This document shows, one piece after another, positions 22,886-62,531 of a stretch of 64,000 nt of DNA (position 1 is its first letter; each line of letters begins with the position of its first letter). Where the stretch lies: positions 1 to 64,000 of the forward strand of contig JAFGVN010000109.1 of the NCBI GenBank assembly GCA_016937975.1. Direction: 5' to 3'. The position numbers and the translations under genes were made by a program. The DNA comes from Clostridia bacterium (GTDB lineage: Bacteria > Bacillota > Clostridia > Peptostreptococcales > Acidaminobacteraceae). The notes beneath the pieces were generated by a model that saw only the letters and a list, made by a program, of their open reading frames with translations, was not told the DNA's origin and searched no databases.

Positions 22886-22903
22886 TTGTTGATTTTTTAA
22901 CAA
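22886..22903 (+). promoter_or_regulatory. Rex-like operator upstream of the hydEGF cluster
   Basis: TTGTTGA-TTTT-TTAACAA differs from the Rex consensus TTGTTAA-N4-TTAACAA at one position. It overlaps the -35 box at 22889-22894, the right place for repression by the NADH/NAD-sensing repressor Rex. Confidence 0.7.
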
Positions 22904-48499: not shown

Positions 48500-48517
48500 T
48501 TGTTAAAAGGTTCACAA
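48500..48517 (+). promoter_or_regulatory. Rex-like operator upstream of the hydrogenase structural genes
   Basis: TTGTTAA-AAGG-TTCACAA fits the Rex consensus TTGTTAA-N4-TTAACAA with one change, and that change (TTCACAA) is a common Rex half-site form. It lies 55 bases before hydC. Confidence 0.7.
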
Positions 48518-48572: not shown

Positions 48573-49055
48573 ATGGCAAAGAAACTGTCACAAGAAGAAT
48601 GTTTCGCTAAATTAAATGAAGCAATCGAGGTTCATAAAGGAAGTCAAGGCGCATTAATGCCAATCCTTCATGAAGCACAACATTTATTTGGTGCAGTACC
48701 ACTAGATGTACAAAAGGTAATTTCAAAAGCGTTGTCAATTCCTTTAGCTGAAATCTATGGTGTTGTTACTTTCTACTCTCAATTTACATTAGAGCCAAAC
48801 GGCGAATTTTTAATTGGAGTATGTATGGGTACAGCATGTTACGTTAAAGGCTCAGGTCCAATCTTAGACAGAATCTCTAGAGAATTGAATTTACCTGTAA
48901 AAACGACATCACAAGATGGTAAATTTACTTTGATTGATACAAGATGTATTGGCGCTTGTGGTTTAGCACCAGTTATCACAATCAATGACGACGTATATGG
49001 TAGATTGACTGAAGCTGAGATTCCAAGTATTTTAGCAAAATACATTAACGCTTAA
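48573..49055 (+). CDS. hydC: Electron-bifurcating hydrogenase, NuoE-like subunit
   Basis: A 160-residue thioredoxin-fold [2Fe-2S] protein, equivalent to HydC/HndA. Cluster cysteines are CMGTAC and RCIGACG, as in NuoE (C-x4-C ... C-x3-C). The helical N-terminal domain (HEAQHLFGAVPLDVQKVISKAL) matches NuoE. It passes electrons within the NADH/ferredoxin-coupled complex. ATG follows AAGGAGG. First of four co-directional genes with gaps under 50 bases. Confidence 0.93.
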   Translation: MAKKLSQEECFAKLNEAIEVHKGSQGALMPILHEAQHLFGAVPLDVQKVISKALSIPLAEIYGVVTFYSQFTLEPNGEFLIGVCMGTACYVKGSGPILDRISRELNLPVKTTSQDGKFTLIDTRCIGACGLAPVITINDDVYGRLTEAEIPSILAKYINA

Positions 49056-49087
49056 TTAGGATAGCAGAGATTTAGGAGGACAATTAC

Positions 49088-49447
49088 ATGAAATCGTTAG
49101 CAGACTTAGCGAAATTACGTGAAGAAGCTTTAAAAAAAGTTAACATTCGCGGTGAAAGAAAAGGTAAGAGAATTGTTGTTGGTATGGCTACTTGTGGCAT
49201 CGCTGCAGGCGCTAGACCAGTACTTAATGCTTTAGTTGAAGAAATTCAAAAGAGAAACATTCAAGATGTTGAAGTAACTCAAACGGGATGTATTGGTGTT
49301 TGTAAACTTGAACCAATCATTGAAGTTTATGATGAAAACAATGAAAAAACAACCTATGTTGAAATGACAGCTGAAAAAGCACAAAAGGTTATCGTTGATC
49401 ATATCGTAAATGGTCAAATTGTTGCAGAATTTACTATTCAAGAATAA
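49088..49447 (+). CDS. [2Fe-2S] thioredoxin-like subunit, HndB type
   Basis: A 119-residue single-domain thioredoxin-like ferredoxin. The cluster cysteines lie in MATCGIAAG and QTGCIGVCKLEP. Similar small subunits (HndB of Desulfovibrio fructosovorans) occur between the NuoE- and NuoF-like subunits of tetrameric bifurcating hydrogenases; Thermotoga lacks a separate one. An N-terminal leader helix of about 35 residues is present. AGGAGG precedes the ATG. Confidence 0.88.
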   Translation: MKSLADLAKLREEALKKVNIRGERKGKRIVVGMATCGIAAGARPVLNALVEEIQKRNIQDVEVTQTGCIGVCKLEPIIEVYDENNEKTTYVEMTAEKAQKVIVDHIVNGQIVAEFTIQE

Positions 49448-49484
49448 TTATTGATTATTTTACGGATATAACAGGAGGTTAAAG

Positions 49485-51275
49485 ATGGAATTATATAGAT
49501 CGCATGTCTTAATCTGTGGCGGTACAGGATGTTCTTCTTCAGGATCATTAACATTTGAAGATAAATTTGCTGCTGCTATGGCAAAACATGATTTAAACAA
49601 AGAAGTAAAATTAGTTAAAACTGGATGTTTTGGTCTTTGTGAAGCAGGTCCTATCGTGGTAGTTTACCCAGAAGGTGCTTTCTACTCAAGAGTAACTGAT
49701 GAAGATATTACAAAGATCGTTGAAGAACATTTGTTAAAAGGTAGAATTGTAAAGGGATTACTACATGGTTCTGCAATTGATGAAGAAGTAACGAAATCAA
49801 TTAATGAAGTTGATTTCTTTAAGAAACAAAAGCGTGTTGCTTTAAGAAACTGTGGTATTATCAACCCAGAAAACATTGAAGAATATATCGCATTTGATGG
49901 TTACCAAGCATTAGGTAAAGCTTTAACTGAAATGACTAGAGAAGAAGTTATTGAAGTAGTAAAAGCTTCAGGTCTAAGAGGCCGTGGTGGTGGAGGATTC
50001 CCTACTGGCTTAAAATGGACTTTTGCTTACAATGCACAATCTGAAAAGAAATATGTTGCTTGTAATGCCGATGAAGGTGACCCAGGTGCATTCATGGATA
50101 GATCGGTACTTGAAGGAGATCCACATGTAATCATCGAAGCTATGGCAATTGCAGCTTATGCAATTGGTGCTGATGAAGGTTATGTTTATATCCGTGCAGA
50201 GTACCCAATCGCTGTTAAACGTCTTGAAATTGCAATTGAGCAAGCTAAAGAAATGGGCTTATTAGGTAAGAATATCTTTGGTACAGACTTTAACTTTGAT
50301 CTTAAGATTAAATTAGGTGCTGGTGCATTCGTTTGTGGTGAGGAAACTGCTTTAATCGCTTCAATTGAAGGCGAAAGAGGTATGCCTAGACCTAGACCGC
50401 CATTCCCAGCGAATAAAGGTATCTTCGGTCAACCAACTGTATTAAACAACGTTGAAACTTATGCTAACGTGCCACAAATCATCTTAAATGGTGCTGAATG
50501 GTTCGCTAACATAGGTACTGAAAGATCAAAAGGTACTAAAGTATTCGCATTAGGTGGAAAGATCAACAATACTGGTCTTTTAGAAATCCCAATGGGAACA
50601 ACTTTAAGAGAAGTAATCTTTGATATCGGTGGTGGTATTCCAAATGGTAAAGCTTTCAAAGCTGTACAAACTGGTGGTCCATCAGGTGGATGTATTACTG
50701 CTGAACATTTAGATACACCAATTGATTATGATAACTTAATCGAATTAGGCTCAATGATGGGTTCTGGTGGTATGATTGTAATGGACGAAGACAACTGTAT
50801 GGTTGACGTTGCAAGATTCTTCCTTGACTTTACTGTTGATGAGTCATGTGGTAAATGTACGCCATGTAGAGAAGGTACAAAGCGTATGCTTGAAATGTTA
50901 GATAAGATTTGCGAAGGCAAAGGTACAATGCAAGATATCGAAGATTTAGAGCAATTAGCTTACACAATCAAAGATGCTTCATTATGTGGTTTAGGACAAA
51001 CTGCTCCAAACCCTGTATTATCTACATTGAAATATTTCAAGCATGAGTATCTTGCTCACGTTGAAGATAAAAAATGTCCAGCAGGTGTATGTAAAGACTT
51101 ATTAGCAATTACAATCACAGATAAATGTATTGGATGTACTATGTGTAAAACTGTTTGTCCTGTTAACTGTATTTCAGGTGAAAAGAAAGGCCAGCATGTG
51201 ATCGACCAAGATGCATGTATCAAATGTGGTGCTTGTATTGATAAGTGTCCTGTTAAGTGTATTGTTAAGAAATAA
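49485..51275 (+). CDS. hydB: Electron-bifurcating hydrogenase, NuoF-like flavoprotein
   Basis: The 596-residue NADH-binding and probable bifurcating subunit. An N-terminal [2Fe-2S] thioredoxin-like domain (CGGTGCSSSG, CFGLCEAGP) is followed by the NuoF core with GLRGRGGGGFPTGLKW (NADH/FMN), CNADEGDPGAFMDRS, and the [4Fe-4S] motif ESCGKCTPCREG. At the C terminus are two extra [4Fe-4S] motifs, CIGCTMCKTVCP and CIKCGACIDKCP, as in HydB of Thermotoga. ATG follows AGGAGG. Confidence 0.95.
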   Translation: MELYRSHVLICGGTGCSSSGSLTFEDKFAAAMAKHDLNKEVKLVKTGCFGLCEAGPIVVVYPEGAFYSRVTDEDITKIVEEHLLKGRIVKGLLHGSAIDEEVTKSINEVDFFKKQKRVALRNCGIINPENIEEYIAFDGYQALGKALTEMTREEVIEVVKASGLRGRGGGGFPTGLKWTFAYNAQSEKKYVACNADEGDPGAFMDRSVLEGDPHVIIEAMAIAAYAIGADEGYVYIRAEYPIAVKRLEIAIEQAKEMGLLGKNIFGTDFNFDLKIKLGAGAFVCGEETALIASIEGERGMPRPRPPFPANKGIFGQPTVLNNVETYANVPQIILNGAEWFANIGTERSKGTKVFALGGKINNTGLLEIPMGTTLREVIFDIGGGIPNGKAFKAVQTGGPSGGCITAEHLDTPIDYDNLIELGSMMGSGGMIVMDEDNCMVDVARFFLDFTVDESCGKCTPCREGTKRMLEMLDKICEGKGTMQDIEDLEQLAYTIKDASLCGLGQTAPNPVLSTLKYFKHEYLAHVEDKKCPAGVCKDLLAITITDKCIGCTMCKTVCPVNCISGEKKGQHVIDQDACIKCGACIDKCPVKCIVKK

Positions 51276-51319
51276 CATTTAGGATCGAAGAATACAAGTT
51301 ATAAGAGGAGGAAATCAAA

Positions 51320-53050
51320 GTGGTTAAAGTAACGATTAACAACACTGTGGTAGAAGTACCAGAGTCATATACAGTTTTAGAAGCTGCTAGAGAAGCTGGA
51401 TTCGACATTCCTACACTATGTTACATGAAAGAAATCAACGAAGTTGGTGCATGTAGAGTATGTTTAGTAGAAGTTGAAGGTGCTAGATCATTACAAGCTT
51501 CATGTGTTTTACCTGTTAGAGATGGCATGGTAATTAAAACAAATACAAAAAGAGTAAGAGAAACAGTTAAAACAACTGTGGAATTAATCTTAGCAAATCA
51601 TGATAGAGAATGTACACAATGTGTAAGATCTGGTAACTGTGAATTACAAACGATTGCTGAAGATCTTGGTGTTACAGGCTTAAAATATCAAGGTGCTAAA
51701 AGAGTAAAAAAATATGACGATTTTTCACATTCAATCGTTAGAGACACTTCTAAGTGTATCTTATGTGGTAAATGTGTTAACGTATGTAAGAAAACTCAAG
51801 ATGTTGGTATCTTAGGATTCCAAAACAGAGGTTTCAATACAACTGTAGGTCCAGCATTTGATAGACCAATGACAGAAACTGATTGTTTATTCTGTGGTCA
51901 ATGTATCAATGTTTGTCCAGTAGGTGCTTTAATGGAAAAATCAGATATTCACAGAGTATTTGATGCTATTGAAGACCCAGATACTTATGTAGTTGTTCAA
52001 ACAGCTCCAGCTGTTAGAGCTGCATTAGGTGAAGAATTCGGTTATGAAATCGGTACTAGAGCAACTGGTAAAATGGCTGCTGCATTAAGAAGACTTGGTT
52101 TCAATAATGTGTTCGATACGAACTGGGCTGCTGACTTAACCATTATGGAAGAAGGCACTGAATTATTAGGTAGAATTCAAAATGGTGGTGTATTACCAAT
52201 GATTACATCATGTTCACCAGGTTGGATTAGATACTGTGAATTCAATCATCCTGACTTCATTCCTAACTTATCATCATGTAAGTCTCCACACCAAATGTTT
52301 GGTGCAATTGCAAAGACTTACTACGCTGAAAAGAAAGGATTAGATCCAAAGAAAATGTTCGTTGTATCAGTAATGCCTTGTACATCTAAGAAAACTGAAG
52401 CTGCAAGACCAGAAATGGAAGTTGAAGGCTTAAGAGATGTAGATGCAGTAATCACTACTAGAGAATTAGCTAGAATGATTAAGCAAGCTGGTATCAACTA
52501 CAATAAATTGCCAGATGAAGGTTTTGATAACATTATGGGTGAATACTCAGGTGCAGGTGTTATCTTCGGTGCAACTGGTGGTGTTATGGAAGCTGCAATC
52601 AGAACTGTTGCTGACGTATTAACTGGTCAAGACTTAGAAAACATCGAATATGCAGCTGTAAGAGGCGTTGAATACATCAAAGAAGCAACTGTTACAATTG
52701 GTGATTTAGATGTTAAAGTTGCTGTAGTACATGGCACTGAAAATGCTGGTAGATTACTTGAGATGGTAAGAAATGGTGAAAAAGATTACCACTTCATCGA
52801 AGTAATGGGCTGTCCAGGTGGCTGTGTAAACGGTGGTGGTCAACCTCAACAACCTCAAAAAGTAAGAGACGTCATTGATTTACGTGTTGCTAGAGCAAAA
52901 GCATTATATGAAGAAGATCAAATTTTAGAAATTAGAAAATCTCATAAAAATGAAGAAATCAAAAAGCTATATGAAGAGTTCTTAGGCAAGCCTAATAGCC
53001 ACAAAGCTCACGATTTATTGCACACGCATTATACTTCAAGAGAAAAATAA
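51320..53050 (+). CDS. hydA: [FeFe]-hydrogenase catalytic subunit HydA
   Basis: The 576-residue M3-type [FeFe]-hydrogenase, the size of clostridial CpI. N-terminal clusters: [2Fe-2S] (CYMKEINEVGACRVC...C), His-ligated [4Fe-4S] (HDRECTQCVRSGNC), and two [4Fe-4S] (CILCGKCVNVC, CLFCGQCINVC). H-cluster motifs: L1 TSCSPGW, L2 MPCTSKKTEAARPE, L3 EVMGCPGGCVNGGGQP. The L1 motif has Ser299 where the textbook form has a second Cys (TSCCP). GTG start after AGGAGG. It is matured by HydE, HydG and HydF encoded at 23-27 kb. Confidence 0.96.
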   Translation: MVKVTINNTVVEVPESYTVLEAAREAGFDIPTLCYMKEINEVGACRVCLVEVEGARSLQASCVLPVRDGMVIKTNTKRVRETVKTTVELILANHDRECTQCVRSGNCELQTIAEDLGVTGLKYQGAKRVKKYDDFSHSIVRDTSKCILCGKCVNVCKKTQDVGILGFQNRGFNTTVGPAFDRPMTETDCLFCGQCINVCPVGALMEKSDIHRVFDAIEDPDTYVVVQTAPAVRAALGEEFGYEIGTRATGKMAAALRRLGFNNVFDTNWAADLTIMEEGTELLGRIQNGGVLPMITSCSPGWIRYCEFNHPDFIPNLSSCKSPHQMFGAIAKTYYAEKKGLDPKKMFVVSVMPCTSKKTEAARPEMEVEGLRDVDAVITTRELARMIKQAGINYNKLPDEGFDNIMGEYSGAGVIFGATGGVMEAAIRTVADVLTGQDLENIEYAAVRGVEYIKEATVTIGDLDVKVAVVHGTENAGRLLEMVRNGEKDYHFIEVMGCPGGCVNGGGQPQQPQKVRDVIDLRVARAKALYEEDQILEIRKSHKNEEIKKLYEEFLGKPNSHKAHDLLHTHYTSREK

Positions 53051-53056
53051 TAACTT

Positions 53057-53093
53057 AGCCTCTGTAGAAAATACAGGGGCTTTTCTTTATTTT
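53057..53093 (+). terminator. Terminator of the hydrogenase operon
   Basis: AGCCTCTGT / ACAGGGGCT with an AGAAAAT loop and TTTTCTTTATTTT tail. Confidence 0.88.
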
Positions 53094-53167
53094 GGGGCTG
53101 TGTGAATGACAAGTTTAATGAAATAATACGGACTTCATGATAAAATGAAGAAGTGAGGTAAATGAAT

Positions 53168-53842
53168 ATGAAGTATATGGATGAATTTGTAAGAGAAATC
53201 CCTTTGACTTTAGTGATTAATGATGAGGAAAAATGGACATTGTTATGTGAACCTTCTCATTTAAAGGCTTTAGTAGTAGGTTTTTTGTATGCCAATTACT
53301 ATATTCAAGGCTTAGATGATCTTGATAAAGTGATTATTGATGAAGAAAAGGGTATGTGTTATATCGAACTACAAAATAACCTATCTATTATGAATCACAG
53401 ATATGTTACTTCAGGCTGTGTAGATTCAGCTGTATTTTATCGAATGTTGGATGCTATTACCAATAAACCCTTGCAAAAGAAGGCTTTAAATACAACGCAA
53501 ATACGGTCTTTGAAAAATGCAATCAACTCATTGGAAGCTTTATCTGCTATTGGATGGTCTAAGACGCATAATTCTATTGTAAAGGATGTTTATCCTGTTA
53601 ATCGAATTTATAAAATTGTTGGTGAACAACTGATAGAATCAAAGCAATATGAGTTCATAATCCTTGATGAAAATCTTACAATGGAACTCCTCATAGCATG
53701 TAAAAGGAGTAACATCCATGGTATCTGCTATAGGGGATATGTTTCGGAAAAAGCCATTAGATTTTCAGAAAAAATGGGTATTGATTTAGTGAGTTTCCAA
53801 GAAAGTGGTGACATTTTTGTCCAGGGTAAAAAACTGCTCTGA
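53168..53842 (+). CDS. FdhD-like protein with altered cysteine loop
   Basis: A 224-residue relative of FdhD, the sulfurtransferase that activates molybdenum or tungsten formate dehydrogenases. REIPLTLVINDEEKWTLLCEPSHLKALVVGFLYANYYI matches the FdhD N-terminal pattern and GWSKTHNSIV, YRGYVSEKAIRFSEKMGI match later segments. The normal SSCGVCG loop, which carries sulfur, reads VTSGCVDS here, so only one Cys remains. A formate dehydrogenase is not in the window. Its place between the hydrogenase operon and the HydS module suggests a related job. I chose ATG 53168 (GAGG 9 bases upstream); ATG 53162 is possible. Confidence 0.75.
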   Translation: MKYMDEFVREIPLTLVINDEEKWTLLCEPSHLKALVVGFLYANYYIQGLDDLDKVIIDEEKGMCYIELQNNLSIMNHRYVTSGCVDSAVFYRMLDAITNKPLQKKALNTTQIRSLKNAINSLEALSAIGWSKTHNSIVKDVYPVNRIYKIVGEQLIESKQYEFIILDENLTMELLIACKRSNIHGICYRGYVSEKAIRFSEKMGIDLVSFQESGDIFVQGKKLL

Positions 53843-53868: not shown

Positions 53869-53896
53869 TTGAAAATAGCGCAAAAAAGTGTATAAT
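53869..53896 (+). promoter_or_regulatory. Promoter of the HydS regulatory module
   Basis: TTGAAA, 16-base spacer, TATAAT, about 50 bases before the first DRTGG gene. Confidence 0.6.
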
Positions 53897-53934
53897 AAAT
53901 ATATATTGTTAAAAAAATAACGTTCCTTGCGCTA
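53876..53934 (+). promoter_or_regulatory. Separated inverted repeat around the module promoter, with a weak Rex-like site inside
   Basis: TAGCGCAA (53876-53883) and TTGCGCTA (53927-53934) are perfect inverted copies 51 bp apart centre to centre, about five helical turns. They enclose the -10 box and the expected start. Inside, TTGTTAA-AAAA-ATAACGT (53906-53923) has a perfect left Rex half-site and a poor right half (three mismatches). Confidence 0.5.
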
Positions 53935-53946
53935 AATGGAGGCATT

Positions 53947-54294
53947 ATGAAATTAAAGGAAATTGCTGAACTGCTTAAATGTGAAATTTTAATAGGAGAA
54001 GCCTATTTGGAGCGAGAAGTTAAATTCGCTTTTGGCTCTGATTTAATGAGTGATGTTTTGGCCTATACTGAAGAAGACACCGTATTATTAACAGGTTTAT
54101 GCAATAATCAAGTGATTAGAACAGCTGAAATGCTAGATTTAAAATCAGTTGTTTTTGTTCGTGGTAAAAAGCCTTCGGAAGATATTATTGAAATGGCAAA
54201 AGAAGATGATATGTTATTGATGTGTACAGATTATAGTTTGTATGCAGCTTCGGGTATATTATATTCTCATGGTTTAGAAGGTACTGAAATTTAG
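53947..54294 (+). CDS. DRTGG-domain protein, copy 1
   Basis: A 115-residue small DRTGG-fold protein (MKLKEIAELLKCEILIG...), the domain also found next to CBS domains and in phosphotransacetylase. The segments DLMSDVLAYTEEDTVLLTGLCN and SVVFVRGKKPSEDIIEMAKE fit the family. Probably a small-ligand sensor; the ligand is unknown. A second such gene lies at 56051. First gene of a six-gene operon. Confidence 0.8.
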   Translation: MKLKEIAELLKCEILIGEAYLEREVKFAFGSDLMSDVLAYTEEDTVLLTGLCNNQVIRTAEMLDLKSVVFVRGKKPSEDIIEMAKEDDMLLMCTDYSLYAASGILYSHGLEGTEI

Positions 54295-54302
54295 GAGTAA
54301 AA

Positions 54303-54749
54303 ATGTATCGATTACAGCGCGATGAAAGTGATTTGGCAATGATGAAAGCCTTTGAAGTCTCCAATGAAGATTTTTCTTCAGCGGGTACAGCTTCAAGCAA
54401 AATAAAGAAAATATTACGTCAAATTGGTATGGATGCAGGTGTGATCCGTCGAATTGCAATAGCAACCTATGAAGCTGAAATTAACGTTGCTATTCATTCC
54501 AATGGTGGACATATTGAAGTTTATATCAAATCAGATAAAGTAGATATCTACGTTGAGGACACTGGTCCAGGTATTGCAGATATTAATCTGGCAATGCAAA
54601 AAGGCTATTCAACAGCGACCAAAGAGATTAGAGAATTAGGTTTTGGAGCTGGGATGGGATTACCCAATATGGAAAAGTGTTGTGACGATTTTTACATTGA
54701 ATCTGTCGTAGATGAGTATACAGCAATTAAAATGACATTCAATCTTTGA
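54303..54749 (+). CDS. RsbW/SpoIIAB-like GHKL ATPase
   Basis: A 148-residue anti-sigma-type ATPase/Ser kinase fold: N box ATYEAEINVAIHSNGG, G1 VEDTGPGIADI, G2 GFGAGMGLPNM. It could bind or phosphorylate a partner protein. It is placed directly before the HydS-like gene, as TM1422-type genes are near hydS in Thermotoga (from memory). ATG follows AGGAGTAAAA. Confidence 0.85.
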   Translation: MYRLQRDESDLAMMKAFEVSNEDFSSAGTASSKIKKILRQIGMDAGVIRRIAIATYEAEINVAIHSNGGHIEVYIKSDKVDIYVEDTGPGIADINLAMQKGYSTATKEIRELGFGAGMGLPNMEKCCDDFYIESVVDEYTAIKMTFNL

Positions 54750-54766
54750 TGATGGTGGGGGAAAAG

Positions 54767-56044
54767 ATGGAAAAGTATTGGCATTCCGTTATCCTGGATA
54801 ACGATTATTGCAATGGCTGTACAAATTGTTTGAGCAGATGTCCTACTCAAGCAATACGTGTCATAGATGGTAAAGCAAAAATAATGAAAGAGCGTTGCAT
54901 AGATTGTGGGGAATGTTTAAAAATATGCCATTTTCATGCAAAAGGTACACTTTCAGATGGATTGGAAGCAATACATCAATTTAAGTATAAAGTTGCAATA
55001 CCTGGTATTTCAATTTATGGACAGTTTCCGGCAGAATATGATATCGAAGATGTCTTTCAAGGCATATATAAACTAGGTTTTGACCTGGTATATGATACAG
55101 CCTATGCAGCAGATGTCTTAACAAAATTCCAAAATCAACTTCTTAAAGAACCCTTTATAGAAAAACCGATTATTTCGACATATTGTCCAGCAATTACGCG
55201 TCTGATTCAAATTAGATATCCGTCATTGATCGACAATATTACGCGATTGGAATCTCCAATGGAAGTTGCTGCACGGTTAGTAAAGAAGCAGCTGATGGAA
55301 GAAAAGGGATTAAGTTTTGATGAAATTGGTGTTTTTTATATCTCTCAGTGTCCGGCAACGATTACAAGTATTAAACAACCCCTTGGTTTGGAAAAATCAT
55401 TTATTGATGGTGGTATCAGTTTAGAATCCATATATTCCAAATTGCTTAAGATCATTGTAAAAGGCGAAAGACTGTATCCAACTGTTCAGAAAGCTTCAGG
55501 CAATGGTGTTGGCTGGGGTATGGTTGGTGGACAATCTTTTGGATTGGATACTGAAAAATATTTGGCTGTAGATGGCATAGAAGAAGTTATTCGAGTTTTG
55601 GATAAAATGGAGTTGGGTAAATTACCAGAAATTGATTTTTTTGAAGGATATGCATGTGTAACAGGTTGTTCTGGTGGTGTTTTAAATGTTGAAAATCCTT
55701 TTATGGCCAAAGCTCGAATTAGAATTAAATCAGCAGAACTTCCAAAATATAATCCGAATTTAATCGATGAAACGATTAAAAGAGAAGATTTGGAATGGGA
55801 TGTTGAAATGGAACCGAGATCCATTTTAAAACTGGATAGTGATTTTAAAGTAGCTTTAAGCAAAATGTCCAAATTAGAGGAGTTGGCTCAGAAACTTCCT
55901 GGTATTGATTGTGGTGCATGTGGTGCACCAACTTGCAGAGCTTTAGCGGAAGATATTGTTATGAACAGAGCTGCAATTACAGATTGCTTGGTATTAGGAA
56001 AATTTAATCGTAGAAGACAGAAAAAAAGTAAAACGGAAGTGTAG
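54767..56044 (+). CDS. hydS: HydS-like putative sensory [FeFe]-hydrogenase
   Basis: A 425-residue protein. N-terminal: two [4Fe-4S] motifs (CNGCTNCLSRCP, CIDCGECLKICH). Middle: an H-cluster-type domain with Cys140 in STYCPAI (L1), Cys195 in SQCPATITS (L2), and Cys297/Cys301 in YACVTGCSGG (L3). C-terminal: an extra Fe-S domain LPGIDCGACGAPTCRALAE. All four likely cluster ligands remain, but the proton-relay position in L1 is Tyr139 rather than Cys, a feature of putative sensory enzymes. ATG 54767 is preferred (GTGGGGG upstream); ATG 54746 overlaps the previous gene. Confidence 0.85.
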   Translation: MEKYWHSVILDNDYCNGCTNCLSRCPTQAIRVIDGKAKIMKERCIDCGECLKICHFHAKGTLSDGLEAIHQFKYKVAIPGISIYGQFPAEYDIEDVFQGIYKLGFDLVYDTAYAADVLTKFQNQLLKEPFIEKPIISTYCPAITRLIQIRYPSLIDNITRLESPMEVAARLVKKQLMEEKGLSFDEIGVFYISQCPATITSIKQPLGLEKSFIDGGISLESIYSKLLKIIVKGERLYPTVQKASGNGVGWGMVGGQSFGLDTEKYLAVDGIEEVIRVLDKMELGKLPEIDFFEGYACVTGCSGGVLNVENPFMAKARIRIKSAELPKYNPNLIDETIKREDLEWDVEMEPRSILKLDSDFKVALSKMSKLEELAQKLPGIDCGACGAPTCRALAEDIVMNRAAITDCLVLGKFNRRRQKKSKTEV

Positions 56045-56050
56045 GTTAAT

Positions 56051-56383
56051 ATGAAAATTATAGACTTAGTAAATCATGAAGATTTCAAATTAATTTCAAA
56101 AATCAGTCAAACAGAACGTGAAATTGCAGGGGTAGAATGTTGTGATCTATTAAGTTGGGTTATGGCAAATGGACAAGAAGGCGAAGCATGGATCACAGTT
56201 CAAATTCATTCTAATATTGTTGCAGTAGCAACTTTGCTTGATTTTTCTTGCATCATTGTACCTGAAAACATCGAAGTAGATGCAGAAGTGATTGAAAAAG
56301 CAACTGATGAGGATATTCCTGTATTTTCGACTCAACTTGATGCATATGGTATTTTTAAAGTTTTTTATGAAGCTGGCATTTAA
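56051..56383 (+). CDS. DRTGG-domain protein, copy 2
   Basis: A 110-residue small DRTGG-like protein (MKIIDLVNHEDFKLISK...). Sequence VECCDLLSWVMANGQEGEAWITVQ and the late VEVDAEVIEKATDEDIPVFSTQLDAY fit the fold. It is diverged from copy 1. The stop overlaps the ATG of the PHP gene (TAATG), so the pair is coupled. Confidence 0.78.
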   Translation: MKIIDLVNHEDFKLISKISQTEREIAGVECCDLLSWVMANGQEGEAWITVQIHSNIVAVATLLDFSCIIVPENIEVDAEVIEKATDEDIPVFSTQLDAYGIFKVFYEAGI

Positions 56384-57099
56384 TGAAATTATATTATGAT
56401 TTTCATATTCATACGGGTTTATCGCCTTGTGGTTCTGAAGATATGTCACCAAATAATATTGTAAACATGTCCCTTATTAAAGGGTTGGATGCAATTGCAA
56501 TTACAGACCACAATGGGATTGATAATGTGGCGGTATGTTGTGAAGTAGGTAGGAAAGCTGGTTTAATTGTAATTCCAGGTATAGAGCTTCAAACGATTGA
56601 AGATATTCATAGTGTGGCATTATTTAAAACCGTGGAGGATTTAAAAGCCTTTTATTGTGCCATTGAAGATCAGCGCTTGAAAATTAAAAATAAACCTGAA
56701 AAATTTGGAGAACAATGTATCTTTGACGAAATGGACGAAGTCATCAAAACTGAACCTATGTATTTAATAACGCCATTTACCATTCCTTTGAAGAGAATGA
56801 TTCAATTGGTTAGAACATATCAGGGCTTGTTATTTCCGGCACATATCAATAGGAATTCCTTTAGTATCATAAAAAGTTTAGGTTTTATTGATGATGAACT
56901 GGATATCCAGAACATTGAGTGGTATGGGAAAAGACCAATAGATGCTGAAGAATATGAAAAACGTATGAAAAAATCATATCGTGAGTTAATTAATTCAGAT
57001 GCTCATGAATTGGTTCAAATATCTGAAAAAGAAAATTTCATTGAAGTAGATGAAATGAGTATAGAAGGGATCTTCAGAACTTTGAACACAATGATATAA
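56383..57099 (+). CDS. PHP-domain phosphoesterase-like protein
   Basis: A 238-residue PHP-fold protein with YDFHIHTGLSPCG (HxH), AIAITDHNGI (TDHN) and PGIELQT motifs, and a late NSDAHELVQ. These are metal ligands of PolIIIA-type PHP enzymes. The substrate is unknown; a nucleotide second messenger or phosphoester is possible. Similar PHP genes sit in other hydS-type loci as I recall. Confidence 0.85.
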   Translation: MKLYYDFHIHTGLSPCGSEDMSPNNIVNMSLIKGLDAIAITDHNGIDNVAVCCEVGRKAGLIVIPGIELQTIEDIHSVALFKTVEDLKAFYCAIEDQRLKIKNKPEKFGEQCIFDEMDEVIKTEPMYLITPFTIPLKRMIQLVRTYQGLLFPAHINRNSFSIIKSLGFIDDELDIQNIEWYGKRPIDAEEYEKRMKKSYRELINSDAHELVQISEKENFIEVDEMSIEGIFRTLNTMI

Positions 57100-57110
57100 A
57101 GGAGATTCAG

Positions 57111-57674
57111 ATGAGAGAATTATCATTGCATATATTAGATATAGCACAAAATTCCATTGTAGCAGAAGCTGATGAAATAAGAATAGCAATTATTGAAGAT
57201 TATTTACAAGATCGTTTAGCTATTTGCATTAAGGACAATGGAAAAGGAATGGATCAAGAGACCTTGGCAAAAGTTGTTGACCCTTTCTATACCACTAGAA
57301 CAACAAGAAAAGTTGGACTAGGTATTCCAATGTTTAAACAAGCGGCAGAACAATGTGAAGGTAAATTTACCATTACATCTAATCTTGGTGTAGGGACTGA
57401 GATTGTAGCTGAATTTAAGCATTCACATATAGATCGTATGCCACTTGGTAATATGTCCGATACTTTAATTACGATTATTAATTCCAACGATAAAATCAAC
57501 CTAATGTATACCCATGAAATTGGAGAAGAGAAGTTTACCTTGTGTACTAGAGATATCAAGAAAACTTTGGGAGAGTTGCCAATTACCAACTTGGATGTAT
57601 TGATTTGGTTGAGAGATTACATTAAAGAAAATCTATATGAAATGTATGAGAAGGCAAAAAAATTCATGGTTTAG
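57111..57674 (+). CDS. GHKL (HATPase_c) ATP-binding protein
   Basis: A 187-residue protein with N box HILDIAQNSIVAEA, G1 KDNGKGMD, F-box VDPFYTTRTTRKVGLGIPMF and G2 GVGTEI. It has the histidine-kinase ATPase fold but no dimerisation/phospho-His domain, so it may phosphorylate or bind a partner. It ends the module; the strong terminator at 57719 follows. Confidence 0.85.
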   Translation: MRELSLHILDIAQNSIVAEADEIRIAIIEDYLQDRLAICIKDNGKGMDQETLAKVVDPFYTTRTTRKVGLGIPMFKQAAEQCEGKFTITSNLGVGTEIVAEFKHSHIDRMPLGNMSDTLITIINSNDKINLMYTHEIGEEKFTLCTRDIKKTLGELPITNLDVLIWLRDYIKENLYEMYEKAKKFMV

Positions 57675-57718: not shown

Positions 57719-57754
57719 ACTCTAGTACAATGATTTGTACTAGAGTAGTTTTTT
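57719..57754 (+). terminator. Terminator of the HydS module
   Basis: ACTCTAGTACA / TGTACTAGAGT (11 bp) followed by TTTTTTG. Confidence 0.9.
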
Positions 57755-58806: not shown

Positions 58807-58832
58807 AATTGTGTTTTCACACAATTTTTTTT
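58807..58832 (+). terminator. Hairpin with T-run before the TadE-like gene
   Basis: AATTGTG-TTTTCA-CACAATT followed by TTTTTTAT. It separates the tmk group from the TadE-like group. It is only a dozen bases from the next start codon, so a leaderless-like or read-through transcript is implied. Confidence 0.65.
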
Positions 58833-58843
58833 ATAATCATTAT

Positions 58844-59170
58844 ATGGAAAAAATTGTAAATAAAAAAGGCAGCCTTACGGTTGAGGCAATCATTATCATC
58901 CCTATTATAATCATATTTGTCAGTGGATTCATCATTATGTGGATTCATCTATTTGAATTTGATGTAGGAGTCATAGAAACACATCATAAAGTCTTAAATG
59001 GCGAAAATAGCAAAGTTGAAGTACAATTTACAATCCTTGAAAACGAAGTTGTAAAATCCTATCATTATTCGAATCATTACTTTAAAGTTGAAACCATACA
59101 ACGTATTGTTCGAACAATTATTTATGTCGTGGAGTTATATTTTGGACGTATACAAATTAAAAAACAATAA
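58844..59170 (+). CDS. TadE-like pseudopilin
   Basis: A 108-residue protein with the TadE-type N terminus: KKGSLTVEAIIIIPIIIIFVSGFIIMWI, i.e. Gly-Ser before a hydrophobic stretch with Glu at the fifth position, as in prepilin-like proteins. The C-terminal domain is small. ATG 58844 has no clear ribosome site; an upstream in-frame GTG at 58811 would lie in the terminator hairpin and is less likely. Overlaps the next gene by 29 bases. Confidence 0.65.
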   Translation: MEKIVNKKGSLTVEAIIIIPIIIIFVSGFIIMWIHLFEFDVGVIETHHKVLNGENSKVEVQFTILENEVVKSYHYSNHYFKVETIQRIVRTIIYVVELYFGRIQIKKQ

Positions 59171-61187
59171 AGGTGTCGTAACAGTAAAAATTCTAATAAT
59201 CTTAAGTGTATTGCTATCCCTTTCTTTTATGATGATACAAGTTTTATTTGAGCATTATAGCCAGAATCAGTTGTCACGTTTGATATACCTTCAAGGGGAT
59301 GATTTAAAAGGTCAAATGGATGGTTACTTATTAGAGCATTATGGACTTTTTGGTATTTATGATTATGATTTGAGAACCTTGTTTTCAACTAAGAATAATC
59401 CAATAAAGATTATTAATGTTGATCTTGAACCCTTGGAATCGTTAAGTCATTCAAACCAGATAAGAAAGCAAATAATCAATTTTATGCTATTAAGGATGCC
59501 GTCCAATTATTTGGATATGTTCTTAACACGGCTAGATATCATTAAAACAGCAGACAATACAAACCAAGCCATTGATCTGAAAACGACATTGGATTTGGCT
59601 TTTGGTACTTTAGAACAGTATTTCAATCAAAGTGTTATTTACAGTATAAAAATTAATGCATTTAATCCAGAAGTTTGGAGAGCACGGGATTTGTCTTTGA
59701 TAGATGCTTTTGAAGTTCTTAAAAAGAAGTTTTTGAGTGTCAATCAAATTGTAGAGATCTTGTATGAAAATTATTTGAGTTCTTATGATATATATTTAGG
59801 ATACTTAGATGAATTGAATTTAATAGAGGTTCCTACAGTAGAAATGGAGGAGAAACTCAGACTTTTCAAGGCAAAGTATGAAGATGATAAAAGGCTTTAT
59901 GAAGCAGCATATTATGAACTTACCGAGTTGTATGAAAATCTAAGAATATTAAATATAGACTATGAAAAGCATTTGAAAGTCATAGACACTTTAATCAGTG
60001 ATCATAAGATGCTCCTTGATATATTAAAGAAAATAGAATCCAAAAAAGATGAATTGAAAAAAATGTGTGGGATTACGACTCAAGGCATTTTGGCCATTGA
60101 AAGCATTGAAGAAGTTTCGAATACTTTAGTAGATGAAATTGATAAACTGAACCAGAGTTTAGAAAGTAAGAACCTTGATGTGATTGACGATATGACAAGC
60201 AAGCTGGAAAATAATTTAGTGATCCTAAATAAGATCAATACCCATTTGGTTTTGAGTTTTGAAAATTCAATCTCTAAACAACAATTAGCAGGTTATCAAG
60301 GAGACTTGGAGGATTATAGCGAGGAAAGAAATAAAAAGATAAATCCAGAAGATGAAGCCTATTATAAAAAATTCAAAAGAAAAGGTGATGAAACCTTTGA
60401 GGAAAGTTATGAAGGCGAAAAAGTTAAGAAGCAACTAAAGAAAGACACTGGTGAGGAAGAACCTAGTATATTTAAAGTGAAAAGTATCCTTAGCTCAGGT
60501 AAGAATCTACTGGAAGAATTTATGATCAATGAGTACATTGTTTCAACATTTACATGTTTTTCTCAAGCTTCCAGTTATGACTATGATTTTTTTGATAAAT
60601 ACAATCGTGAAAAGTACTTTCAAAGAGGTGAAGTTGAATATATATTATTTGGAAAAGATTTGGAAATTAAGAATGTTGACAGAACCATAGCCTCAATTTT
60701 TGCTATTAGAGTACTGATGAATGGCATTCATGTCTATTTGGACAAGGATAAGATGAGCATGTCAGAAAGTATTGGCATGGGTGTAGCAGGATGGACTGGA
60801 TTTGGTGGACCGTTGATTACGAATATTATAAGAGTAGGTTGGTCAGTCGGTGAAAGCTTTATTGATATGAAAAAACTTTTAAAGGGAGAAATCGTACCTG
60901 TGTTAAAGCTTTACCCTGAAGAATGGGAACTGGAAGTTGGTCTTTCAAAGAAAACAGGTAAAAGGAAAAGCCTTGGTTTTAGTTATCATGATTATTTAAG
61001 AGTTTTATTGCTAACCCTGGATTCAGAGACGAAAATGAACCGATTGGTACACCTCATAGAACTAAATTTGTATAAAGGAAATCGACCATATTCGCTCAAT
61101 CTGTATCATACCCATTTTTTTATAACAACCTCTGTTAAGATTGGTCCTTTTAATCAAGAGCAAACCCTTGAGGTTGAATATGAATAA
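59142..61187 (+). CDS. TadG/DUF5702-like envelope protein
   Basis: A 681-residue protein starting TTG after GTGGAG (59129-59134). The N terminus LKNNKGVVTVKILIILSVLLSLSFMMIQVLF is prepilin-like (Gly then a hydrophobic segment). The middle region (about 190-380) is rich in predicted coiled coil. A late hydrophobic patch (IGMGVAGWTGFGGPLITNIIRVGW) is present. It resembles the DUF5702 proteins found in clostridial Tad loci; no strong motif proves it. Overlaps the next gene by 8 bases. Confidence 0.55.
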   Translation: MDVYKLKNNKGVVTVKILIILSVLLSLSFMMIQVLFEHYSQNQLSRLIYLQGDDLKGQMDGYLLEHYGLFGIYDYDLRTLFSTKNNPIKIINVDLEPLESLSHSNQIRKQIINFMLLRMPSNYLDMFLTRLDIIKTADNTNQAIDLKTTLDLAFGTLEQYFNQSVIYSIKINAFNPEVWRARDLSLIDAFEVLKKKFLSVNQIVEILYENYLSSYDIYLGYLDELNLIEVPTVEMEEKLRLFKAKYEDDKRLYEAAYYELTELYENLRILNIDYEKHLKVIDTLISDHKMLLDILKKIESKKDELKKMCGITTQGILAIESIEEVSNTLVDEIDKLNQSLESKNLDVIDDMTSKLENNLVILNKINTHLVLSFENSISKQQLAGYQGDLEDYSEERNKKINPEDEAYYKKFKRKGDETFEESYEGEKVKKQLKKDTGEEEPSIFKVKSILSSGKNLLEEFMINEYIVSTFTCFSQASSYDYDFFDKYNREKYFQRGEVEYILFGKDLEIKNVDRTIASIFAIRVLMNGIHVYLDKDKMSMSESIGMGVAGWTGFGGPLITNIIRVGWSVGESFIDMKKLLKGEIVPVLKLYPEEWELEVGLSKKTGKRKSLGFSYHDYLRVLLLTLDSETKMNRLVHLIELNLYKGNRPYSLNLYHTHFFITTSVKIGPFNQEQTLEVEYE

Positions 61188-61860
61188 TAAAGGTGTTATT
61201 ACAATTGAAGGGCTCATTGCTTTTTCTGCTTTTTTATTGGTTATGGTTCTGATCATAAGTATGTTTCATTATTATGCTTATCAAGACTTAGTTGCTCAAA
61301 TCGCTTATGACAGTGTACTAACGAGTGAAATAGTTCATTTTGCATATCATGTTATCAGTCCGGAAGATTGGATTAAATATGAGAGCTATATACCTGAACC
61401 ATTGCTACCTCAAGTAGCACCGATTATAGAACAGGTTAAAACACTTGTTTCAGATGAAGGCTTTGAAATCTATCTTGAAAATTATTTGAAAGTAAAATAT
61501 AAAGAACATGATATAGAAATAGAACCGAAAGTGAGTTTAAAAGATGGCTATCTTGAATTGGAACTGGATTATGATTATTCCATGCCCTTTAATTTTAATC
61601 TAGAAGATCAGCTCTTTGTACATAAAGCTCTGTATCTTTATGGTGTCGGTGGACAAAAGCCTTCAATGGCTTTGAATAAAGAAACTAAGTATGTTTATGT
61701 GACTAAATCGGGGAGTAAGTATCACGAGGCGAATTGCTTTTATTTAACAAGAAGTACCACGGATAAAGAAGAAATCAGAAAAATCACTTTGGAAGAAGCA
61801 CAAAAAAGTTATTCGCCGTGCAGAAGGTGCATGATTAAGGAGGTAGATCTTTGGAAATAA
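61180..61860 (+). CDS. TadE-like protein with C-terminal HxxxC/CxxC domain
   Basis: A 226-residue protein. The N terminus NNKGVITIEGLIAFSAFLLVMVLIISMF is prepilin-like. The C-terminal domain KYVYVTKSGSKYHEANCFYL...SYSPCRRCM matches the small HxxxC-x(n)-CxxC domain often found at the end of secreted bacterial proteins and thought to bind metal. ATG overlaps the previous stop; the stop overlaps the next TTG start. Confidence 0.6.
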   Translation: MNNKGVITIEGLIAFSAFLLVMVLIISMFHYYAYQDLVAQIAYDSVLTSEIVHFAYHVISPEDWIKYESYIPEPLLPQVAPIIEQVKTLVSDEGFEIYLENYLKVKYKEHDIEIEPKVSLKDGYLELELDYDYSMPFNFNLEDQLFVHKALYLYGVGGQKPSMALNKETKYVYVTKSGSKYHEANCFYLTRSTTDKEEIRKITLEEAQKSYSPCRRCMIKEVDLWK

Positions 61861-62531
61861 ACCAAATTATTGCAGGTAAATATGAAATAACAGAAATTCT
61901 GAAAAGCACTCAAAACAAGGTAATTGCAAAATGTATTCATCAATCACTACGGAATCCTTGGCTAATTAAATATGTAAATGAACATGAGAATATCAATGAG
62001 CTAGAAGCTTTACTCGAACTTGAAGTGTATCATATACCAAAAATTATTGACTATTACCAAAGCGCTAAAGGAACATACTATGTTCTAGAGTATATTCCAG
62101 GTATGACCATGGATGAGTTCGTAAAGAGTTTTCAAATAAATACTAAAACTTTGGTTCATTGGATGTTAACTTTAGGGAAAATCATAGCAGATGTTCATGG
62201 TCAGGGCTATGTCCATGGTGATATAAAACCTGAAAATATCATGATAGTAGACGAAAAAGATTTAGTTTTAATTGATTTTGGATCCTGTTTTAAAGAAATT
62301 GATTCTGAATCCTTTACTTTTGAGTACGTTGCACCAGAACGCTTGTGTGATCTTGGTGTCGTGGATGACCGTTCAGATATTTATAGCTTTGGCTTAATCT
62401 TCAGAGAAATTCTTAGTAAAATGAAAATCAAGAAGAAAAAATTAGTTCATCTCGTTCAAAAATGCTGTGAGGTAGAAATTGAAAAAAGACCAAGGATGGT
62501 AGATGTGATAGCTCTTCTGAATGAAATCTAA
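61851..62531 (+). CDS. Small serine/threonine protein kinase
   Basis: A 226-residue Hanks-type kinase. It has the catalytic loop VHGDIKPENIM, DFG in LIDFGSC, APE in YVAPERL, and DIYSFG. The glycine-rich loop is degraded (ILKSTQNKVIAKC) and the VAIK Lys maps to WLIKYV, with no membrane helix or PASTA domain. TTG start after AAGGAGG, overlapping the previous gene by ten bases. It may signal to the pilin-like proteins. Confidence 0.85.
   Translation: MEINQIIAGKYEITEILKSTQNKVIAKCIHQSLRNPWLIKYVNEHENINELEALLELEVYHIPKIIDYYQSAKGTYYVLEYIPGMTMDEFVKSFQINTKTLVHWMLTLGKIIADVHGQGYVHGDIKPENIMIVDEKDLVLIDFGSCFKEIDSESFTFEYVAPERLCDLGVVDDRSDIYSFGLIFREILSKMKIKKKKLVHLVQKCCEVEIEKRPRMVDVIALLNEI

Follow-up and report, generated by a model that had tools for sequence, protein, structure and literature searches.

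A conserved gene module of DRTGG, GHKL and PHP proteins accompanies a putative sensory group D [FeFe] hydrogenase in a clostridial genome and its relatives

Group D (M2e) [FeFe] hydrogenases have been published as putative sensors (PMC6984386, PMC8163306; here and below, papers are cited for the excerpts that bear on these systems), and TamHydS of Thermoanaerobacter mathranii produces H2 200-fold more slowly than CrHydA1 (PMC6984386). Its residue E252 was proposed as the first proton relay of the group D path (PMC10407848) and reported to be highly conserved, and an AraC regulator has been reported beside TamHydS. Kinase-like genes and a bifurcating hydrogenase near group D HydS have been partly noted before (PMC3561251), and the way in which group D sensory hydrogenases relay their signal without a PAS domain has been named an open question (PMC8163306). 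The locus described here lies in a window of 64,000 nucleotides (bases 1-64000 of contig 42 of the 4.03 Mb draft genome of a Clostridia bacterium, assembly GCA_016937975.1), where a HydS is embedded in a six-gene module on the plus strand (positions 53947-57674): DRTGG-1 (DR1), the GHKL kinase GK1, HydS, DRTGG-2 (DR2), a PHP phosphoesterase and a second GHKL ATPase, GK2. This is a known sensor class with an output module for which, as a set of DRTGG, PHP and GHKL genes, no description was found in searches of an open-access library.

The window HydS shares with TamHydS (PMC6984386, PMC8163306, PMC10407848, PMC13104023) two N-terminal [4Fe-4S] clusters, the H domain and a C-terminal Cx2Cx4Cx16C motif, and in both the PAS domain is absent, the relay cysteine is lost and a GHKL gene adjoins; members of the TamHydS class likewise often lie near a bifurcating group A hydrogenase. 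It differs in having Tyr instead of Ala at the relay position, Gln at the equivalent of E252 and Tyr at the position of M497. The group C (M2f) HydS proteins (TmHydS, HfsB, R. albus HydS; PMC11837493) are also putative H2 sensors encoded near other hydrogenase genes and also have a C-terminal [4Fe-4S] cluster (PMC13104023), but they carry a PAS domain and, in one of our loci (L185; L and G numbers are our own for loci and genomes), are fused to a histidine kinase that adjoins a sigma-54 type response regulator, and the group C operon hfs has a serine phosphatase-like gene where the window has separate GHKL, DRTGG and PHP genes (PMC11837493). With two-component systems the module has GHKL ATPases and a sensor protein in common, but neither a HisKA domain nor a constant response regulator. 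With SpoIIAB/RsbW switches, GK1 has the fold family and the catalytic Glu and Asn in common, whereas it scores under the family cut-off, is without a STAS or sigma partner and has DRTGG-1 in the adjacent place. The CBS-DRTGG region of family II pyrophosphatases (3l2b, 3l31; PMC7226116) has the DRTGG fold of DR1 and also combines CBS and DRTGG in one system; unlike there, the DRTGG proteins of the module are free-standing, the CBS domains found in some relatives are attached to the kinase instead of the DRTGG protein, and no pyrophosphatase is present.

The six genes follow each other with intergenic gaps of 8, -4, 6, -1 and 11 bp, and are thus as tightly packed as a preliminary description, made from the DNA letters, had stated. 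DRTGG-1 (53947-54294, 115 amino acids; PF07085, 32.4 bits, cut-off 25.2) is followed by the SpoIIAB-like GHKL kinase GK1 (54303-54749, 148 amino acids; HATPase_c_2, 37.6 bits), HydS (54746-56044; two Fer4, Fe_hyd_lg_C at 83 bits, FeS at 49.3 bits, no PAS), DRTGG-2 (56051-56383, 110 amino acids), the PHP metal-dependent phosphoesterase (56383-57099, 238 amino acids; PF02811, 33.2 bits, cut-off 26.4) and GK2 (57111-57674, 187 amino acids; HATPase_c, 56.3 bits). Pfam supports the families that had been assigned to five of these proteins, while DRTGG-2, at 24.7 bits, stays just below its PF07085 cut-off. HydS likelier begins at ATG 54767 than at TTG 54746, and its gap to GK1 would then be 17 bp. 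Neither GHKL ATPase has a phospho-His domain, as had been claimed: HisKA, STAS and PAS domains are not listed for the six proteins in Pfam at E<=1, with filters that drop most weak matches, and no receiver domain was found in them. A promoter-like site, TTGAAA-16-TATAAT, with 11 of 12 consensus matches (53869-53896, plus strand) precedes DR1, with a similar -10 region at the same place in two genomes of the same genus, and a terminator-like hairpin with a 12-bp stem and a T run follows GK2 (57719-57746, plus strand), so that the six genes look like one transcription unit; promoter-like sites as such show no excess in the region (40 found, 46.2 expected), and terminator-like sites number 8 against 4.5 expected. 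A further terminator-like hairpin (53057-53081, plus strand; 10-bp stem with five G-C pairs) lies after hydA, between the hydABC genes and the module.

Conserved linkage had been set beforehand as a test of the module, and the neighbourhood survey bears it out. We compared the window with 40 further HydS loci from 61 genomes around it, each above 250 bits (near set), and with the best 80 of at least 587 HydS loci (named set), which after removal of two duplicates gave 119 pooled loci. The strict core DR1/GK1/HydS/DR2/PHP is present in 80 of the 104 HydS loci that have both flanks. Among 110 loci with at least 1.2 kb upstream, GK1 is found in 93, DR1 in 93 and both in 89, and among 111 with at least 1.5 kb downstream, DR2 is found in 91 and PHP in 87. 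Spacings of at most 20 bp prevail (DR1-GK1 97/107, GK1-HydS 52/110, HydS-DR2 77/101, DR2-PHP 96/104), and none of the counted member pairs lies on opposite strands. The 24 loci without the strict core include PHP-GK2 fusions (L052, L054) and wider spacing (L105, L131); L147 has no PHP match, and hydC lies nearby. Reduced loci also belong to these 24, with GK1-HydS only (L080, L096, L132, L138), DR1-HydS only (L062, L089, L099) or HydS by itself (L064-L074, L150). In the near set, the HydS and HydA profiles compete and many HydS are labelled HydA, and the PHP profile used for reading the loci contained fused proteins. The order of the module genes is far beyond chance.

The same picture is seen in a sample of 199 genomes of the phylum, which were queried with the window's proteins (E cut-offs 1e-40 for HydS, 1e-12 for GK1 and for PHP, 1e-3 for DRTGG, 1e-22 for GK2 and 1e-150 for HydA of group A6), absence meaning no match among the best candidates per genome (up to 8 for HydS, 16 for GK2 and 6 for HydA). 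Of these genomes, 68 contain HydS, 74 GK1 (including one weak match in G073), 69 PHP, 82 a DRTGG match and 72 GK2; the DRTGG count includes four genomes (G063, G064, G111, G215) whose sole match lies in a longer frame of 441-455 amino acids, probably another DRTGG protein. HydS, GK1, PHP and DRTGG occur jointly in 64 genomes and are jointly missing from 116. In each of the 66 genomes other than the window's that have both HydS and GK1, these two are no more than 2 kb apart. Group A6 HydA occurs in 138 genomes, of which 70 have neither HydS nor GK2; as all 72 genomes with GK2 have a DRTGG match, and only 6 of the 76 with A6 HydA but no HydS match have GK2, GK2 goes with the module more than with HydABC. 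GK1-HydS and DR1-DR2-PHP-GK2 lie on separate contigs in three genomes of one family (G186, G216, G242). The co-occurrence pattern is strong, but related genomes are not independent, and the very small Fisher values are therefore given no weight. One scan of viral contigs gave no HydS relatives. Taken together, the six genes almost certainly form one functional unit.

Which parts of this unit touch each other is suggested by natural fusions, found on inspection of 20 loci, most of them selected because their spacing was unusual, a frame was long or only a single match was present, and of 16 more. DR1 is fused to GK1 in four genomes of two families (L187-L190), HydS to DR2 in two genomes of one family (L185, L186), and PHP to GK2 in six genomes, two of the window's family (L052, L054) and four of another (L197-L200). 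Of the eight fusions checked among these twelve, Pfam sees both halves in seven (L187, L188, L190, L185, L186, L052, L197), whereas in L189 the DRTGG half stays under the cut-off (22.2 against 25.2). The fusions suggest a contact of HydS with DRTGG-2 and of DRTGG-1 with GK1. A further type of fusion concerns the input: GK1 carries two N-terminal CBS domains in L175, L176, L177 and L184, which belong to three genomes (G150, G177 twice, G210) without a HydS match at E<=1e-40, and a CBS-CBS-GK1 protein also stands beside HydS in L196 (G099); all five proteins are confirmed by Pfam. The simplest reading of a CBS pair on GK1 where a HydS match is lacking is a core switch with an exchangeable sensor, and the core accordingly looks, as far as gene content can tell, like a sensor-independent switch. 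The idea of a HydS-centred module thus holds for the linkage, but HydS is not its fixed centre, as 3 of the 199 genomes have the module with CBS-GK1 and no HydS match. DR1 loci without GK1 and HydS (L179-L181) or without HydS and PHP (L182, L183; their GK2 matches of 101-104 bits fall below the GK2 threshold and outside the 72 genomes) also exist. The module of L178 (6665-8425) looks decayed, with only short fragments of HydS and PHP and no GK1 found; it keeps DRTGG-1, DRTGG-2, GK2 and hydABC, and a Rex gene overlaps its DRTGG-1.

HydS itself is a group D (M2e) [FeFe] hydrogenase by domain order, C-terminal motif and tree. It has two N-terminal [4Fe-4S] clusters with all eight cysteines intact, the H domain, no PAS, and a C-terminal cluster whose motif reads C389-x2-C392-x4-C397-x16-C414 in the alignment (numbering from TTG 54746 here and below). 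In a tree of 32 rows, where the HydS of Thermoanaerobacter wiegelii represents TamHydS, the window protein falls with group D, which lies on one side of a branch with support 75/94, recovered in 69% of 200 bootstrap trees, and group A stands apart with 100/100; group C is represented by two rows and group B by none, and the border between D and C is not firm. The sensor-type protein that had been proposed belongs to a class already published as putative sensors. Four Fe_hyd_lg_C matches are found in the genome, namely HydS and three HydA of type A6. The H-cluster cysteines C147, C202, C304 and C308 are invariant in 21 aligned HydS, and all four are kept in 119/119 HydS, which extends to the whole set what had been said of the window protein.

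The tyrosine that had been pointed out at the proton-relay position is real (Tyr146, or Tyr139 when counted from ATG 54767, in place of C299 of CpI), but it is not diagnostic for a sensor: the 96 HydS that have both DR1 and GK1 show Ala 58 times against Tyr 23 times, besides Leu 5, Ser 5, Phe 3, Thr 1 and Asp 1, and Tyr prevails only in the window's order (Tyr 23, Leu 4 and Phe 2 in 29 such loci, window included). TamHydS positions were matched by motif and offset, with the HydS of Thermoanaerobacter wiegelii (L079) as stand-in. By this matching the E252 equivalent is Gln in all 29 module loci of the window's order (Q263 in the window), and the M497 position is Tyr in 29/29. Group D therefore does not share the published proton path throughout, and we treat E252 as a usual rather than a defining feature of the group; E289 of the same path corresponds to E300 and is kept in 119/119. 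Across the 96 HydS the E252 position is Glu in 57, Gln in 38 and Ala in 1, and it varies together with the relay residue: relay Ala pairs with Glu in 57 of 58 cases and every other relay residue with Gln (38/38), which in the 67 named-set loci with DR1 and GK1 amounts to Ala with Glu in 57, Ala with Ala in 1 and non-Ala with Gln in 9. HydS proteins not having both DR1 and GK1 break this rule. HydS quite probably senses H2 or the redox state for the module. In L185 (9588-13272) and L186 (9763-13479), a group C HydS-PAS-histidine kinase fusion with a sigma-54 type response regulator is found roughly 1 kb 5' of the group D module, and both sensor types thus adjoin; the fusion and regulator of L185 were checked with Pfam.

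How might such a unit work? The module may be an output path from H2 or redox sensing, and we propose that it reports the H2/ferredoxin redox state to the electron-disposal machinery. HydS, as a slow H-cluster protein with a sensory role proposed in the literature, would be the usual sensor, its state would pass to DRTGG-2, and the signal would probably travel onward via the paralogue pair DRTGG-1/DRTGG-2 to the serine kinase GK1, which in turn would probably phosphorylate a DRTGG protein or an unlinked target. PHP, together with GK2, to which it is fused in some genomes, would reset or balance the signal, and where a CBS pair is fused to GK1, this pair would take the place of the sensor. The target would most likely be HydABC or Rnf, whose operons adjoin the module, and Rex would set the expression of both the module and hydABC. 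For such a kinase/phosphoesterase unit, switched by a sensor (HydS or CBS) that acts via the DRTGG proteins on GK1 to tune HydABC/Rnf electron disposal, we see the scales as level, and the same holds for its central element, GK1 as a protein kinase acting through DRTGG proteins, which may equally be right or wrong. A more far-reaching version would be a new class of switch, in which paired DRTGG proteins replace STAS beside a SpoIIAB-like kinase, sensors plug in (an H-cluster via DRTGG-2, a CBS pair on the kinase), GK1 phosphorylates Ser35 of the DRTGG protein and PHP reverses this, so that HydABC, Rnf and the Rex regulon would be coupled both to H2/ferredoxin state and to adenylate charge; in all its parts together, this version is tentative and rather unlikely.

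The link to electron disposal comes from the neighbourhood. Upstream of the module, on the same strand, lie hydC, a Trx-like [2Fe-2S] ferredoxin gene, hydB and hydA of a group A6 bifurcating hydrogenase (48573-53050), hydA with 919 bits against the NF040763 cut-off of 765, and hydB owing its name to visual inspection and to having served as a query. HydB is nearby in 33 of 47 core loci checked (51 qualified), and Rnf genes are near the module in 8 of 51; in L053, rnf genes follow GK2 (RnfC, RnfD and an Rnf-Nqr subunit checked with Pfam). Two places are seen for GK2: it follows PHP, which is the arrangement of the window, or it is inserted between hydC and the ferredoxin gene, of which Thermoanaerobacter (L079), Acetivibrio (L108) and Christensenella (L118) are examples. 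Further recurrent neighbours, such as thymidylate kinase, Rnf genes and NAD kinase, occur in 9 to 19 loci each, the Rnf and NAD kinase clusters being Pfam-checked and the other clusters named by eye. The common thread of these neighbours is the control of ferredoxin/NADH electron disposal, and HydABC or Rnf as the regulated target is somewhat favoured. Rnf genes also occur at HydS loci free of the module (L066-L069, L072, L150; RnfD of L067 and L069 Pfam-checked), and several of the module-free loci have NAD kinase and pseudouridine synthase genes nearby (Pfam-checked in L069).

Rex-like sites precede both the module and hydABC. With what we take to be the Rex operator pattern, a site with three mismatches is found between the -10 region and the DR1 start (53906-53923, plus strand), its 18-mer being identical in two genomes of the window's genus (L035, L036), and a site with one mismatch lies 55 bp before hydC (48500-48517, plus strand). 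Across the window as a whole, three-mismatch sites are as frequent as chance predicts (19 against 18.9 expected), so that only position and conservation make these two sites of interest. In the 180 bp upstream of the genes, sites with at most two mismatches precede DR1 in 21 of 98 cases (1.2 expected from shuffles) and hydC in 21 of 60 (0.6 expected), and precede none of 118 HydS and none of 89 PHP genes; the DR1 signal is concentrated in the window's order, where 24 of 30 upstream regions contain a site with up to three mismatches, compared with 14 of 68 for the named set. Among 119 loci with DR1, 8 have a Rex gene immediately 5' of it, in five of them with a 4-bp overlap (Rex Pfam-checked in L180, L190 and L192); the genome of the window carries a single Rex match, located on a different contig. 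Elsewhere in the window, at positions 22886-22903, lies a second Rex-like site that is nearly perfect, with one mismatch.

Several observations weigh against the proposed switch. GK1-HydS pairs occur without the other parts in Spirochaetaceae (L132, L137, L138) and in L080 and L096, HydS has DR1 but no GK1 in L062, L089, L097 and L099, and neither of the two in L064-L074 and L150, which means that not all parts are needed everywhere; L097 and L137 lie on short contigs. HydB is not nearby in 14 of the 47 core loci checked, and clustering of neighbours across the loci gave no transcription factor as a constant member. Close relatives were counted separately, and the counts overstate independence; the fusions are confined to few families, two each for PHP-GK2 and DR1-GK1 and one for HydS-DR2, and all eight Rex-adjacent loci are among the 20 that were picked for odd features. 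A DRTGG protein serving as a kinase substrate is not known to us. Finally, PHP is nearest to nucleic-acid or nucleotide enzymes (EndoQ, RNase AM) and far from the PHP tyrosine phosphatase YwqE/CpsB (Z only 8.2 to the window model), which speaks against a plain protein phosphatase.

This last point leads to the alternative that survives best, a nucleotide-signal system in which the DRTGG proteins (and CBS) bind an adenine nucleotide such as AMP or diadenosine tetraphosphate (Ap4A), PHP hydrolyses it and the GHKL proteins are ATP-gated effectors. The PHP model (pLDDT 95.5) finds EndoQ as nearest fold (Z 21.9, rmsd 2.7, 212 aligned), followed by TM0559 (Z 16.9) and RNase AM (Z 16.1), and the AMP-bound 2yb1 is also among its nearest; its residues D6, H8, H10, D42, H43, E68, H76, H154, D206 and H208 are invariant in 89 sequences. 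The DR1 model (pLDDT 96.5) matches the solved DRTGG structure 2ioj best (Z 17.7, rmsd 1.9, 114 aligned), then 3l2b (Z 14.9) and HPr kinase (Z 10.8), and this places among its solved relatives the pyrophosphatase CBS-DRTGG region, which was solved with AMP and diadenosine tetraphosphate (a study cited in PMC7226116). DR1 carries TGLCNNQ and VRGKKP stretches (by eye), and D32, S35, T49, G50, N53, R72, K74 and T94, which are invariant or nearly so, sit in the model where four strands end or just past these points; this arrangement suggests a single binding face and resembles a ligand site. The replacement of HydS by CBS pairs would fit a nucleotide signal as well. We nevertheless consider this alternative unlikely, since GK1 retains the catalytic Glu and Asn of SpoIIAB in 101/101 sequences and no nucleotide synthetase is a constant member among the neighbours. 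A STAS-like fold for DRTGG-1 was also considered; it is missing from the fold lists, which shows only its absence there. As for phosphotransfer in the sensor-switched unit, S35 stands at a helix start in a D-L-x-S motif common to DR1 and DR2 and is invariant in 100 DR1 and 95 DR2 sequences, but S35 as phospho-acceptor is only a proposal.

GK1 leads to another alternative. Its PDB matches at E<=0.01 are four, all of them SpoIIAB, and its E57 and N61, invariant in 101 sequences, align with SpoIIAB residues 46 and 50, which we take to be the catalytic base and a metal ligand. GK1 could therefore in principle be the anti-sigma factor of a SpoIIAB/RsbW-type partner switch, bound to a sigma factor encoded elsewhere and releasing it under the control of HydS. 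However, GK1 reaches only 51.7 bits against the cut-off of 135 of the anti-sigma F family (TIGR01925), a linked STAS anti-anti-sigma or sigma gene is not found in the six-gene module, to which the search was confined, and the adjacent place is taken by DRTGG-1, which in four genomes is even fused to GK1. The serine phosphatase-like HfsC in the hfs operon of group C HydS (PMC11837493) would suit a partner switch, which for the window is improbable nonetheless. GK1 stands outside the SpoIIAB family by score and partners, though it may work like one. The ATP-site motifs of GK2 are kept in 75 sequences, in an alignment whose profile held fused proteins.

As improbable as the partner switch is that the proteins join into a regulatory subcomplex on HydABC or Rnf, altering the activity or assembly of these enzymes directly, with no transcriptional output. 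The frequent position of GK2 between hydC and the ferredoxin gene, the module often adjoining HydABC or Rnf and the lack of a constant transcription factor are what such a complex would lead one to expect, but HydABC does not need it, as half of the genomes with A6 HydA (70/138, see above) have neither HydS nor GK2, and some loci have neither HydB nor Rnf near the module. That HydS is simply a catalytic hydrogenase with maturation or housekeeping genes as neighbours is hardly tenable, as the relay cysteine is replaced, the proposed proton-path Glu is Gln, TamHydS of the same group is slow (PMC6984386) and the neighbours are kinase-like and ligand-binding folds, against which only the intact cysteines of the H-cluster and of the two N-terminal clusters can be set.

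Some further genes of the region deserve mention. Between hydA and the module, an FdhD/NarQ-like gene (53162-53842, 226 amino acids) scores far below the FdhD equivalog cut-off, has a single Cys in a TSGC stretch (by eye) and is near the module in only few relatives. Beyond the module and a thymidylate kinase gene, the region 58811-62531 encodes a small Pkinase-domain protein and others for which Pfam gave no match (two scanned); some 9 to 11 related loci have comparable genes downstream of their modules. Directly before the minimal GK1-HydS pair, a receiver-domain protein is encoded in L132 (9154-9543) and a CheW-like protein in L080 (9068-9535).

For the question of how group D hydrogenases without PAS domains signal, the module offers named partners, contacts derived from fusions, an exchangeable sensor and Rex as a likely regulator. 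The exchange of the sensor provides a concrete handle on how cells turn hydrogen sensing into the control of energy metabolism. As the four-protein core of HydS, GK1, PHP and DRTGG is present in about a third of the sampled genomes of the phylum (64/199), it may be a widespread means of fermenting anaerobes for tuning H2; these include gut and rumen bacteria, whose H2 production the core may tune.

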